DNA from: Candidatus Blackburnbacteria bacterium RIFCSPLOWO2_01_FULL_40_20
GTDB taxonomy: Bacteria; Patescibacteriota; Microgenomatia; UBA8517; UBA10165
Assembly (NCBI GenBank): GCA_001816475.1
Contig: MHCC01000027.1
Span: 75,312-116,549 of the forward strand
Direction: 5' to 3'
Length of the DNA: 41,238 nucleotides
Under the pieces are notes generated by a model. That model made no database searches and was not told the DNA's origin. It saw nothing but the letters and a program-made list of their open reading frames with translations. Numbering within the stretch: the first letter of the stretch is position 1; each line of letters opens with the position of its first letter. Made by a program: the position numbers and the translations under genes. This document shows positions 4,156 through 8,338 of this stretch, piece by piece.

Positions 4156-4203
4156 CGGGTGGCTAATAAAGACTCCTGTGTGGGTGCCACCCGAAGCAGG
4201 AGT
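4156..4203 (+). promoter_or_regulatory. Structured 5' leader with interleaved stems; SD is part of second stem
   Basis: CGGGTGG(4156-4162)/CCACCCG(4187-4193) and ACTCCTG(4172-4178)/CAGGAGT(4197-4203), both perfect 7-mers; AGGAG 4198-4202, ATG 4212, T-run 4203-4207. Confidence 0.7.
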
Positions 4204-4211
4204 TTTTATTT

Positions 4212-5381
4212 ATGATAAATAACAAATTTGAACTAGAAATAGAAGATTCACTTAAACCAATTGATATTAAAGTTCTTACATGGTCAGAGTTTAAAGCTCA
4301 AACGTACGAGGAGCCTAAATGGATAGTCGAGGGTCTAGTACCAGAGAAAGGTTTGGTTGCAATTGCAGGTTCACCAGAGTCTTGTAAATCTTTATTTTCA
4401 AATTACCTTGCAGCAACAGTGGCGAGAGGAAATACATTATTTGACCTTTATAAAACCATTCAGGTTCCTGTTCTTCTAATCGATCAAGAAAATCTTGAAC
4501 CTTGGCTTCAAAAACGTCTTTCTGATTTTATAGAGCAGGATGATATACCATTACACATTTATCCTAAGCAGGAATGGGTATTTAACGTAGATGATCAATG
4601 TGTATTTGATGAAGTCCTTAAATATATCGATAAGCATAAAATTGGTTTAGTAATTATTGACACTCTCCGTTTCATCCATAACAAGGATGAAAACTCTTCA
4701 ACTGAGATGAAACCAGTTTTTGACAGACTTCGCCAATTAACCGAAGAGACAGCAGTAATTTTTATACATCACAACAAGAAAACTGATAAGTTCAGCAGAC
4801 GTAGGGTTGATGGCGAAGACATGATGGGAAGCATAATTATCAGAGGGTGTGTGGATTCTCAACTTACTCTTACTAAGCTTAGCGATGTTGCCGAAAGCGT
4901 TACAAAGATAAAAGTAACCCAGACTAAATCTAGATATACAAGGCCAATTCCTTCATTTGCTCTAACTTTAGAAGAGACTGACACAGGACTCGGATTTGTT
5001 TATCAAGGAGTCGTGGAAGAAGATAAATTAAAGAAAGATGAAGCAAAAGAGGCTGTTTTATCTCTTTTAGAGCAAACGCTAACACGACAAGAAATTATAG
5101 ACCAGGTCATTCAAGCTAAAACATGTTCCAAAAGAACAGTAGAATCTGCATTAAGCGAGCTTATAAAAGAGAAGAAAGTAACTCGCTCAACTACTAAGCC
5201 TTTCTATTATTCGCTTCTTAAAGAAGAGCAACTAAGTGTTCCGCAATTCGCAGATACACATATAGATTACGGAGTTGCGGAGAGCTTAAGTCAGGCAAAT
5301 AAAACCTCAGATCAGTTAACGGATGGAGAACTACTAGATATTTTTCCAGGAGCGACCATTGAAGGAGTACCTCGTGCTTAG
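4212..5381 (+). CDS. RepA-like AAA family ATPase (AAA_25 type) with C-terminal winged-helix-like segment
   Basis: IAGSPESCKSLFSNYLA (variant Walker A), GLVIIDTLRF (Walker B), AVIFIHHNKK. Confidence 0.8.
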   Translation: MINNKFELEIEDSLKPIDIKVLTWSEFKAQTYEEPKWIVEGLVPEKGLVAIAGSPESCKSLFSNYLAATVARGNTLFDLYKTIQVPVLLIDQENLEPWLQKRLSDFIEQDDIPLHIYPKQEWVFNVDDQCVFDEVLKYIDKHKIGLVIIDTLRFIHNKDENSSTEMKPVFDRLRQLTEETAVIFIHHNKKTDKFSRRRVDGEDMMGSIIIRGCVDSQLTLTKLSDVAESVTKIKVTQTKSRYTRPIPSFALTLEETDTGLGFVYQGVVEEDKLKKDEAKEAVLSLLEQTLTRQEIIDQVIQAKTCSKRTVESALSELIKEKKVTRSTTKPFYYSLLKEEQLSVPQFADTHIDYGVAESLSQANKTSDQLTDGELLDIFPGATIEGVPRA

Positions 5382-5559
5382 CCAAGAAGCAATTATTGAG
5401 TTTAAAGAATTATACTTACAAGAGTACGGGGTTAAACTTACTGATGAGCAAGCCCTCGATTACGACACAAGACTTGTAGGACTAGTTAAGGCGGTTTATG
5501 GCAAGAATCTACCTAAATCTAGTGATATTGACAAGGATAAATGCAAGGAGCATGATTAA
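5359..5559 (+). CDS. Small acidic hypothetical, overlapping RepA-like gene (start may be 5377)
   Basis: 66 aa ORF between RepA-like gene and recombinase, overlapping the former. Confidence 0.55.
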   Translation: MKEYLVLSQEAIIEFKELYLQEYGVKLTDEQALDYDTRLVGLVKAVYGKNLPKSSDIDKDKCKEHD

Positions 5560-5561
5560 AC

Positions 5562-5642
5562 TGTACTCAAACGACTGATTGCTTTTTTTGATGGCCGTCT
5601 TGGACAACCTGAGCAATCAGTTTGAGTACAACCAGGGCGGCC
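5562..5642 (+). promoter_or_regulatory. Interleaved inverted repeats upstream of serine recombinase
   Basis: TGTACTCAAACgacTGATTGCT(5562-5583)/AGCAATCAGTTTGAGTACA(5612-5630), and GGCCGTCTTGG(5593-5603)/CCAGGGCGGCC(5632-5642). Confidence 0.7.
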
Positions 5643-5654
5643 TTTAAAGGTTTT

Positions 5655-7391
5655 ATGGAAGAAAAACAAATCTATCTTCGCTATTTAGGATATGCGCGCA
5701 AGAGTTCTGAGGATAACAAGGAGCGGCAAGCGGCTTCTCTTCCAGAGCAACTATATGTGCTCGAAGGAATAAAAGCAAAACACACCCTAAATGTTGTTGA
5801 AGTTCTCCAAGAATCAAAATCTGCACATAAACCCGGGCGAGAAATCTTTAACAATATGCTTGCCCGAATAGAGAGTGGTGAAGCAAATGCAATTTTAACT
5901 TGGCACCCAAACAGACTTTGCCGTAATGCACTTGACGCAGGCCAGCTTCTTTATCTCATGGATGAAGACAAATTAGTCGAAATTCGCACACCTTCGCGGA
6001 CGTATCGAAATACCCCGGAAGATAAGTTTATGTTGACCCTTGAATTTGGTATCTCTAAAAAAGACTCAGACGATAAAAGCATTGTTGTTGAAAGAGGCCT
6101 AGAGAAGAAAGCAAGAGATGGTTGGAGACCAGGCGTTGCTCCTCAAGGGTATCTGAACGATAAAACAACCGAAAGTGGATTTAGGAAGGTACTTACCGAT
6201 TCAGAACGCTTCCCTTTTATCCAGAAAATTTTTGTGTTGTTTCACCAAGGTACAGCAGTCGTAGAAATACATAGATTAGCAAAAGATATATGGCATTATC
6301 GCTCAAGACAGAAGAAAAGAAGTGGAGGCAAACCACTTTCTTTGAGCATGATTTATAAGATTTTGACTAACCCTTTTTATTGTAAAAAGTTTGAATACCC
6401 AGAAGGAAGTGGAAAATGGTATGAAGGCGCACACGAACCAGCAGTAGACCAAAAGATATTTGACGAAATACAGGTTAAATTAGGCCGTAGAAGCCAATAC
6501 AAACTCCAACACCACAACTTTGCCTATACAGGCAGTATGGTTCGCTGTGGCTCGTGTAGCTCAAGCGTAGTAGCAGAACAAAAGTGGCAATGTATTTGCA
6601 CCAAATGCAAGCTTAAATTCTCGCTTACCAAGAAAAATAAGGAAAAATGCACTGGTTGTGGAACTCTTATTAAAAATATGGACGACCCAACCATTCTCCA
6701 CTACATTTATTACCGTTGCGGGAGAAAAAGGAATCCAAGTTGTAGAGAAAAGGCAGTACGAGTAGATAGGCTCGAGAAACAAATTGACGAAACACTATCT
6801 CAAATTGAAATCTCACCCTTGTTTATGGACTGGGCAGTACGCCAGATTATTAAAGACAATAAACAAGAGAAAACCTTCCAAGATGACACCACAGAAAACA
6901 TTAAACGAGGCCATAGCGATTGCCGGATTAAGCTCAACAACCTATTGCAACTCAAAATTTCACCAGCTAATCAAGACGGCAGCTTATTGAGCGACGAGCA
7001 ATACAAAGTTCAAAAAGAAACCTTGGAAGCAGAACTAAAGGGGCTGGGGAAACAGCTTATGGGTATGGACGAACGCTTAATTCGAGCAAACGACCAAACC
7101 GAGAAAGCGTTTACCTTTGCCACAAGAGCTAAAGAGCGGTTTGCAAATGGAGATATTAAAATAAAGCGAGATATTTTTATGGGACTTGGGTCGCACCTAA
7201 CCCTAAAGGATAAAATTGTGGGTTTTGACGCACCAGAATACATTTATACACTTAAAAAGATGAAAGAAGCGGAGCCAATTATCGCAGAACGGGTCGCACC
7301 TGAAAATCAGCCTGAATATACGCACCAAATGGAAACATATTTTGCCTCCAGTTCTACCTTGTTGCGGGGCCGGGAGTCGCGCCCGGCCTAG
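5655..7391 (+). CDS. Large serine recombinase
   Basis: YLGYARKSSEDNKERQAASLPEQ resolvase domain, recombinase domain, zinc ribbon (CGSCSSS...CTKC...CTGC), coiled coil. ATG at 5655 preferred over TTG at 5622. Confidence 0.93.
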   Translation: MEEKQIYLRYLGYARKSSEDNKERQAASLPEQLYVLEGIKAKHTLNVVEVLQESKSAHKPGREIFNNMLARIESGEANAILTWHPNRLCRNALDAGQLLYLMDEDKLVEIRTPSRTYRNTPEDKFMLTLEFGISKKDSDDKSIVVERGLEKKARDGWRPGVAPQGYLNDKTTESGFRKVLTDSERFPFIQKIFVLFHQGTAVVEIHRLAKDIWHYRSRQKKRSGGKPLSLSMIYKILTNPFYCKKFEYPEGSGKWYEGAHEPAVDQKIFDEIQVKLGRRSQYKLQHHNFAYTGSMVRCGSCSSSVVAEQKWQCICTKCKLKFSLTKKNKEKCTGCGTLIKNMDDPTILHYIYYRCGRKRNPSCREKAVRVDRLEKQIDETLSQIEISPLFMDWAVRQIIKDNKQEKTFQDDTTENIKRGHSDCRIKLNNLLQLKISPANQDGSLLSDEQYKVQKETLEAELKGLGKQLMGMDERLIRANDQTEKAFTFATRAKERFANGDIKIKRDIFMGLGSHLTLKDKIVGFDAPEYIYTLKKMKEAEPIIAERVAPENQPEYTHQMETYFASSSTLLRGRESRPA

Positions 7392-7637
7392 GAGATTATG
7401 CTTGCTGTTTCTCCAATTACTTGGAGTGTCGGACTATCTCATCTCCGATATATATCGGAGTTTGGCGTATAGTCTCTACGGAGTCCTAGATCATTATCTT
7501 GCGATAATATTAAGGTTCCCTCGGGATTGCCCTTCGACTTCGATTAGGGTTTCCCCGATATAGCCAAATTATCATTTCAATGTTACCATCGAATGAGCCC
7601 ATTTTGAGCCTCCTGTGCAACTCTACACTACCCCGCA
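7362..7637 (-). tRNA. tRNA-Met-type (CAU, possibly initiator), exons 7607-7637 and 7362-7400, interrupted by group I intron
   Basis: Spliced: TGCGGGG TA GTGT AGAGTT GCAC A GGAGG CTCATAA TCTCC TAGG CCGGG CGCGACT CCCGG CCCCGCA A. Acceptor, anticodon and T stems all pair. Confidence 0.85.
7401..7606 (-). ncRNA. Group I self-splicing intron (206 nt, no ORF) in tRNA anticodon loop
   Basis: P1 GAGgCU/GGgCUC with U.G at 5' site; P3 UUUGGC/GCCAAA; P4 UCGGG/CCCGA; P6a AUUAUC-GCAA-GAUAAU; P7 GACUAU/AUAGUC; P8 CUCCGAU-AUAU-AUCGGAG; P9 CUCCAA-GUAA-UUGGAG; 3' terminal G. Confidence 0.93.
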
Positions 7638-7735
7638 TGTAAACTTACACCGTATTATATCAACTTACGCTCGAATAAACAATCAGTAACTGGCATTATC
7701 TTGCCGCGCGCAGGCTGAGTTTTGAATTTTGAGGA

Positions 7736-7774
7736 TTGACAAATGGTATACTACTGTATATACTTTGGTATACC
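7736..7774 (+). promoter_or_regulatory. Promoter (TTGACA-17-TATACT) with operator palindromes for toxin-antitoxin operon
   Basis: TTGACA 7736-7741, TATACT 7759-7764; GGTATAC 7745-7751 / GTATACC 7768-7774 inverted repeat flanks the -10. Confidence 0.75.
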
Positions 7775-7775
7775 T

Positions 7776-8060
7776 ATGAATTATGCAATCGTTACTGCAA
7801 AAGTAGATCCTCAAACTAAAAAGGAGGCACAAAAAGTGGCCAAGAAATTGGGTATTCCCCTCAGCGTAGTAATAAAAGCTTTTTTAAAGCAATTTGCAAG
7901 AAGTAAAGCAATTGAATTTTCAGCACGAGACGAAGAGCCCAATAAATACCTAAAATCCGTAATGATGAAAGCAGAAGAAAGCTATAAAAAAGGTAAGACT
8001 TCACCTGCTTTCACAACTGCTGACGATGCTGTAAAGTATCTTGAAGACCGCGGAATATGA
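7776..8060 (+). CDS. RelB/DinJ-like antitoxin
   Basis: MNYAIVTAKVDPQTKKEAQKVAKKLGIPLSVVIKAFLKQF, ribbon-helix-helix; 4-nt overlap with toxin gene. Confidence 0.8.
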   Translation: MNYAIVTAKVDPQTKKEAQKVAKKLGIPLSVVIKAFLKQFARSKAIEFSARDEEPNKYLKSVMMKAEESYKKGKTSPAFTTADDAVKYLEDRGI

Positions 8061-8338
8061 CCATCAGATATAGTTCTGATTTTTTAAGACAATTAAAAAA
8101 ACTAAATGTCAGAGTCCGCAAAAGTTTTAAAGAAAAAATTACAACTTTTATTAAAAATCCCTTCAGCCCAGAACTTGACAACCACTCGCTCAAAAGGGAA
8201 TACCAAGGATATAGGAGTATTGATATTACAAACGATTACCGAGCCATATACCAAGAAAAGGTTGAAGGAGATGAGCTTGTTGCCTACTTTATTTCGATAG
8301 GAACACATAAAGAGTTATACGAGAAATCAACCTCGTAA
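8057..8338 (+). CDS. RelE/YafQ-like mRNA interferase toxin
   Basis: FLRQLKKLNVRVRKSFKEKITTFIKNPFSPELDNHSLKREYQGYRSIDITNDYRAIYQE...VAYFISIGTHKELY. Confidence 0.85.
   Translation: MTIRYSSDFLRQLKKLNVRVRKSFKEKITTFIKNPFSPELDNHSLKREYQGYRSIDITNDYRAIYQEKVEGDELVAYFISIGTHKELYEKSTS

Follow-up and report, generated by a model that had tools for sequence, protein, structure and literature searches.

Between a small open reading frame and a large serine recombinase gene in the window, by which we mean the whole stretch of 41,238 nt analysed here (from a Patescibacteria genome of the Microgenomates type, assembled as 958,425 bases in 27 contigs), lie 95 bases in which two inverted repeats interleave. The question raised by this locus is what these repeats are: a site on the DNA, or an RNA leader of the recombinase gene in which two stems replace one another. 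The genes that flank the repeats are as follows.

5359..5559, + strand: small ORF of 66 aa upstream of the recombinase, from the ORF list, its 3' end overlapping the promoter; a Pfam search gave no match
5655..7391, + strand: large serine recombinase gene, 578 aa, with Resolvase and Recombinase domains (Pfam)

The Pfam matches of the 578-aa product (PF00239, 4.1e-15; PF07508, 1e-5) identify it as a large serine recombinase. The 95 bases with the motif extend from the end of the small ORF (5559) to the recombinase start (5655); downstream, the recombinase gene and a tRNA(CAT) gene on the - strand overlap at their 3' ends. This tRNA gene (7361-7640, - strand) holds a group I intron (7410-7605; Rfam, 76.8 bits), which is present at the same tRNA(CAT) in L005, L010 and L011 and absent from L006, L008 and L009. 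Just past the tRNA, at 7743-8338 (+ strand), a RelB-like antitoxin and a YafQ/ParE-like toxin form a pair.

Folding of the recombinase leader

Two folds, designated state A and state B, were recognised in the leader, and their elements are located as follows.

5562..5569, + strand: 5' arm of stem 1a in state A (fold; covariation of stem 1a)
5570..5572, + strand: 3-nt bulge on the 5' side of stem 1 (fold; 3-6 nt in relatives)
5573..5584, + strand: 5' arm of stem 1b in state A (fold; wobble counts)
5585..5591, + strand: U-run with the following GA, partner of 5644-5650 (TTAAAGG) in state B (state B fold)
5593..5603, + strand: 5' arm of stem 2 in state B, GGCCGTCTTGG (fold; RNAalifold; covariation)
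5605..5612, + strand: 5' arm of stem 3 in state B, a short copy of the stem 1a 5' arm (CAR) (RNAalifold; covariation)
5611..5630, + strand: shared 3' arm, whose partner in state A is 5562-5584 (fold; two-partner covariation)
5617..5624, + strand: part of the shared 3' arm, whose partner in state B is 5605-5612 (fold; two-partner covariation)
5632..5642, + strand: 3' arm of stem 2 in state B, CCAGGGCGGCC (fold; covariation)
5646..5650, + strand: AAAGG, Shine-Dalgarno-like, 4 nt 5' of the start codon (sequence; masked in state B)

In state A, RNAfold joins 5562-5569 and 5573-5584 with 5611-5630 into a stem 1 of 20 pairs; the inverted repeat noted in the preliminary description and its 3-nt bulge are where they had been placed, but the length of 19 bp given there is one pair short. 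In state B, 5593-5603 pairs with 5632-5642 to form the 11 pairs of stem 2, both of whose non-Watson-Crick pairs are U.G on the + strand, and a single nucleotide (5631) separates the right arms of the two stems, just as had been described. Two further elements were absent from that description. A third helix, stem 3, was revealed by RNAalifold and by single folds: the loop 3' of the stem 2 left arm carries CA followed by a purine or other matching letter, which is a short copy of the stem 1 5' arm (there CTCA plus the same letter), and after stem 1 opens this loop copy pairs with the stem 1 3' arm, thereby competing for the same arm. The other is the extension of state B in which the U-run at 5585-5591 pairs with 5644-5650. 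Compared with dinucleotide shuffles, the 141-nt region gave a z of -2.4, with 4 of 200 shuffles as good, which is moderate for a single sequence; the case for structure therefore depends on the relatives.

Two other candidates were rejected. A leader peptide read from the ATG at 5591 (MAVLDNLSNQFEYNQGGL) is at odds with the relatives, in which this position reads AGC (L049) or the reading lengths differ (L009 and L010). An intrinsic terminator or attenuator was dismissed because there is no U-run 3' of stem 2 and no terminator-like site was detected. An aptamer-like conserved unpaired core was not seen beyond the loop U-run and ACA.

Strand asymmetry and covariation among relatives

Four loci with recombinases 55-84% identical to that of the window (L005, L008, L009 and L010) show the same arrangement directly 5' of the start codon with different stem sequences; stem 2, for example, reads GGCCGTCTTGG/CCAGGGCGGCC in the window but ATGCCCTCATTGG/CCAGTGGGGGCAT in L010. 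The locus comparison also placed the arrangement before more distant recombinases, down to 36% identity. The arms of 85 unique leaders were aligned with a score that rewards Watson-Crick pairs only, so that G.T and A.C were treated alike. Among the unpaired juxtapositions of the arms on the + strand, G.T was found 147 times and A.C 4 times (115 vs 1 in stem 2, 11 vs 2 in lower stem 1 and 21 vs 1 in upper stem 1). As a DNA dyad should give approximately equal numbers of the two, this asymmetry points to an RNA and not to DNA alone, and it bears out the RNA role that had been proposed for the leader from two wobble pairs.

The strand asymmetry is also the reason for which we rejected the reading that the dyads serve purely as DNA, as an operator or attachment site to which the recombinase or a repressor of the element binds. 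The 50 bp from the first to the last base of the stem 2 arms (5593-5642) do match a serine integrase attP in size, and integrase promoters frequently overlap att sites (PMC2951348); moreover, the spacer of the type II copies described below holds an inverted copy of sequence adjoining the target tRNA, so that att sequences are nearby. However, there is a third covarying partner on the same strand (see below), the target tRNA of the window is located where the recombinase gene ends, away from the motif, and the same core sequence precedes recombinases with different tRNA targets. We therefore regard a site acting solely as DNA as very improbable, and binding of the DNA by the recombinase alongside an RNA role would be compatible with these observations.

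In 63 distinct relatives, 97.2% of the cells of stem 2 and stem 3 are paired, and the covariation score of the two helices is 0.564, whereas shuffled controls give 0.181 +/- 0.011 and slid ones no more than 0.126; the alignment was fitted to this structure. For lower stem 1 (stem 1a), which was not fitted by the alignment, 93.8% are paired and the score is 0.458 (0.158 +/- 0.014 in shuffles). None of 500 shuffles reached the observed score for either state, and the leader thus behaves as a conserved structured RNA. The compensatory changes that the preliminary description had suggested looking for in the leaders of relatives are accordingly present, with both folds beyond shuffles across the 63 distinct rows. 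Shared ancestry is not fully removed by these controls; the strand asymmetry and the triple match described next are independent of them.

Two mutually exclusive folds of similar stability

The letters of the stem 1 3' arm fit both of their partners, the stem 1 5' arm and its copy in the loop, in 69 of 71 sequences, the triplets being A/A/T (37), G/G/C (18), A/G/T (8), C/T/G (3) and T/T/A (1). Identical partner letters occur in 57 of the 71; in 5000 permutations this number averaged 32.9 and never exceeded 46. Because one 3' arm covaries with two partners, fold A (stem 1) and fold B (stem 2 with stem 3) are both under selection, and covariation of a single strand with two alternative partners is what marks a bistable switch. 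The stems had earlier been judged mutually exclusive on the geometric ground that so short a linker could not span the helix; coexistence of the full stem 1 and stem 2 is indeed implausible given a spacer of 0-1 nt, and the covariation of the stem 1 3' arm with one partner per state is the stronger argument.

Energies computed at 37 C agree with two states in balance. The means are -28.8 kcal/mol for state A and -29.3 kcal/mol for state B, with a difference of 0.5 +/- 4.8, and the computed gap is within 5 kcal/mol in 65 of 81 leaders, so that the two folds are of comparable stability. For the full leader, minimum-energy folding gives A in 42 of the 81 and B in 39. When only the nascent prefix ending at the stem 1 right arm was folded, 80 of the 81 adopted fold A, and from this we infer that the order of transcription would favour A first and B later.

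A compromise between the two states would be a static H-type pseudoknot, in which lower stem 1 and stem 2 form together, the upper half of stem 1 is melted, and the whole serves as a fixed block or a ligand pocket. Judging from the loop lengths, lower stem 1 and stem 2 would be sterically compatible if stem 1b melts, and such a form is a plausible intermediate of refolding. As the final structure it is improbable, since it leaves unexplained both the conservation of stem 1b (21 G.U vs 1 A.C) and the covariation of the stem 1 3' arm with the loop copy in stem 3.

A predicted promoter at a fixed distance from the motif

A sigma70-like promoter, TTGACA-17-CATGAT at 5528-5556, was missing from the preliminary description.

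5528..5533, + strand: -35 hexamer TTGACA of a sigma70-like promoter (sequence; homologous place in relatives)
5551..5556, + strand: -10 hexamer CATGAT (spacer 17), separated by 4 nt from the motif, which starts at 5561 (sequence; fixed place in relatives)

The -10 end lies exactly 4 nt 5' of the motif in 66 of the 85 leaders, and the -35 region has T at -33 in 87% of them, T at -32 in 69% and G at -31 in 55%. The score for a promoter at this fixed place is 8.66 (6.78 +/- 0.12 in shuffles). No conserved sequence was found upstream of the promoter, and copies from six genomes become similar only near it. A promoter at a fixed place sets the predicted RNA start at the base of stem 1, and in the window it strongly suggests a transcript beginning at about 5562-5564. 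A start downstream of 5612, which had been named as incompatible with an RNA role of the dyad, is thus unsupported.

Distribution and genomic context

From an alignment of 12 leaders (A2) we built a covariance model (R1), whose E-values are rough. Among sampled genomes, it matched 103 of the 374 from the class and 31 of the 380 drawn from the phylum Patescibacteria as a whole; 22 of these 31 are outside the class, and there are up to 7 motif copies per genome. The motif lies 5' of a serine recombinase gene in 56 of the 85 copies, at a distance of 60 nt or less in 45 and farther away in 11, in keeping with the view that it is a recombinase leader; a convergent tRNA is met first in 18 of the 85, and in 11 of the 85, several of them at contig ends, neither is found in the available sequence. 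The product of 43 gene-fused copies is a serine recombinase 24-100% identical to that of the window. At the level of sequence comparison, these results establish the RNA nature of the motif, its strand, selection on both folds and the association with serine recombinases, and we consider it highly probable that recombinase mRNAs carry in this motif a conserved RNA that is bistable and acts in cis.

Some recombinase genes do without it. The motif is absent in L006 (recombinase 68% identical), L011, L012 and L013, and L007 has a shortened leader (L007:2460-2517) with a short stem 1 closed by GTGA, in which the left arm of stem 2 is missing and the right arm CCAGGGCGGCC is kept. Without this left arm, only state A is possible in L007. 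Judging from these five loci, the motif would not be indispensable. In addition, a clear Shine-Dalgarno sequence is missing in several relatives.

In the copies that we call type II, the recombinase start lies approximately 200-390 nt past the motif (in one case approximately 640 nt), with a palindromic stretch between. The order of motif, palindromic stretch and recombinase was observed in L131, L015, L071, L074, L082 and L088, the palindromic stretch being bounded by AAAGTTCTTTAAAATTTTTGCG and its inverted copy. In L131, which belongs to the source genome itself (C17:18000-24500; type II leader with its long spacer at C17:22098-22203, - strand), a portion of this palindrome recurs in inverted form (GACAGAAAGTGAATCCGCGA) where the recombinase gene ends by tRNA-Pro, and the whole tRNA-Pro gene is covered in antisense by the recombinase ORF. 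Eleven further loci (L060, L067, L068, L077, L092 and L095, and likewise L107, L117, L120, L128 and L129) have the promoter, the motif and a partial palindromic stretch leading to the 3' end of a convergent tRNA, with no adjoining recombinase. Such tRNA-facing copies look like the ends of integrated elements or non-autonomous copies. Genome G104 (L126-L130) has six motif copies and one Resolvase-family gene, and motifs facing one another in pairs were observed in L113 (about 310 nt apart) and L119 (10 nt apart).

A search of viral contigs with a protein query gave 5 pattern matches, none of them a relative, and the exact motif pattern was found in none of these contigs. Phage and plasmid records held no match to the leader of the window, which was the only leader used as query.

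A probable two-state switch and its possible outputs

Taken together, these features are most simply read as a switch at the 5' end of the recombinase mRNA. Region 5561-5654 would be the 5'-terminal leader of this mRNA, with RNA polymerase beginning at the base of stem 1. Stem 1 (state A) would be the first to form on the emerging RNA. As the right arm of stem 2 emerges, it would pair with the loop of stem 1 and displace stem 1, and the loop copy would then seize the stem 1 3' arm as stem 3, probably giving one long hairpin (state B). This hairpin would end at the start region, where the U-run would pair with AAAGG before the AUG. State A would thus leave the start region open (ON) and state B would mask it (OFF), and each transcript may allow a brief burst of recombinase synthesis until it refolds, or else some factor may bias the choice between the states. 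A 5'-terminal bistable switch that controls recombinase expression in one of these ways is, in our judgement, the probable function of the leader.

For the copy in the window, predicted accessibility agrees with this output. Between A and B, the probability of being unpaired drops from 0.72 to 0.14 for AAAGG and from 0.71 to 0.37 for positions -12 to -1. The simplest reading of these modelled values is that A is open and B is masked. Against it, the start codon is predicted to be largely unpaired in both states (0.79 and 0.82). That masking of the start region is the output in copies like that of the window is a proposition we hold to be about evenly balanced, and it leads among the outputs considered. 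The type II and III copies are as structured, and as balanced between A and B, as the others, and therefore either these copies were derived recently, or the switch can operate away from a start codon as well; given the same equality in the tRNA-facing copies, masking of the start codon cannot be the sole output.

An output at the level of transcription, through pausing, termination or antitermination, is possible though on the whole unlikely. In its specific form, the state B hairpin would pause or terminate RNA polymerase before the gene, or one of the two states would act on the polymerase as an antitermination RNA and carry it through the type II palindrome. Such a role would fit a motif that opens the transcript at a constant distance from the promoter and is equally conserved where the gene is 200-390 nt away, and the putRNA of HK022, a 5' nascent RNA that modifies the polymerase, offers a precedent (PMC9378689). 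However, no terminator-like site was found, the 8 nt 3' of stem 2 average 3.7 T, which is little for an intrinsic terminator, and type I copies have the gene directly after the motif, with no terminator to read through. We consider this form rather doubtful.

Outputs of other kinds, among them an effect on RNA stability or an action in trans, are together no likelier than one on transcription. One of them is a small RNA: the 5' module of approximately 95 nt would be set free to work on the host or on other motif copies, the adjoining gene being secondary. The presence of up to 7 copies per genome, many without an adjoining recombinase, and the fact that the module has its own promoter would suit this possibility, but the 45 of 85 copies within 60 nt of a recombinase start codon, before recombinases down to 24% identical, argue against it, as do the lack of a terminator at the end of the module and of a known target. 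We judge a trans-acting small RNA to be improbable. A broader reading, tentative at best, is a dedicated and widespread class of RNA switches for site-specific recombinases whose output, exerted via the polymerase or in trans, is independent of an adjacent start codon. If true, a switch of this kind, acting also from tRNA-facing copies, could couple the supply of recombinase to the integrated or free condition of the element.

A second bistable leader in the same element

The preliminary description had ascribed the same logic to a leader at 4156, and this likeness holds for a separate RNA of the same architecture that is independently conserved, with its own compensatory changes in L133 and L134. 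It occupies 4156-4210 (+ strand) as the leader of an AAA_25 gene and represents a second conserved bistable RNA (shuffle z -3.9). Its stem 1, CGGGTGGC/GCCACCCG in the window, becomes CAGGTGGAA/TTCCACCTG in L134, and its stem 2 changes from ACTCCTG/CAGGAGT to CTCCCG/CGGGAG, with the Shine-Dalgarno sequence AGGAG lying within stem 2. The two leaders belong to the same element and share a stem 1, a loop copy of its 5' arm and a stem 2 with the ribosome binding site; however, the leader at 4156 differs in sequence, has shorter stems and different downstream genes, and is not matched by R1. In G256, a leader of the 4156 type was observed approximately 730 nt upstream of a serine recombinase.

Comparison with known systems

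Control of integrases is usually ascribed to promoters, repressors and directionality factors. A two-state RNA before diverse serine recombinases would add control at the RNA level to the movement of mobile DNA, in a setting of host-dependent tiny bacteria with almost no genetics, where more than one in four of the genomes sampled from a single class carry the motif. An RNA with both folds visible in an alignment could also serve as a benchmark for the detection of alternative structures and as a basis for compact timers. Rfam (4227 families) gave no match at 5540-5660, at the gathering threshold or at E up to 5, nor did any family match the leaders at nine loci whose recombinases are homologous, and in the open-licence literature we did not find an RNA leader of serine recombinases described.

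The closest counterparts each share part of its features. In mobile elements of the KplE1 intS type, control also resides within a short stretch upstream of a tRNA-associated integrase gene, but there the att site overlaps the integrase promoter and control is exerted by binding of the integrase to DNA (PMC2951348), whereas the leader bears the signature of an RNA. The putRNA of HK022 is likewise a structured RNA at the extreme 5' end of transcripts of a mobile element; it consists, however, of two static stem-loops acting on RNA polymerase, in contrast to the two exclusive folds of the leader. Attenuators and riboswitch expression platforms have in common with the leader a shared strand, two competing partners and near-equal energies, and the leader differs from them in having no recognised ligand domain, leader peptide, terminator or Rfam family.

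The mRNA of phage lambda cIII exists in two conformations in equilibrium. Binding of RNase III to this mRNA relieves an inhibitory structure of the start region and thereby affects translation (PMC2777011). As in the leader, alternative structures thus form in the start region of an mRNA of a mobile element; the two are unrelated in sequence, however, and cIII is not a recombinase. In functional analogy, the leader would work most like the lambda cIII mRNA or an attenuator, yet it is a member of neither family, and it is set apart from cIII as a 5'-terminal module outside the coding region that is common to diverse genes of one enzyme class.
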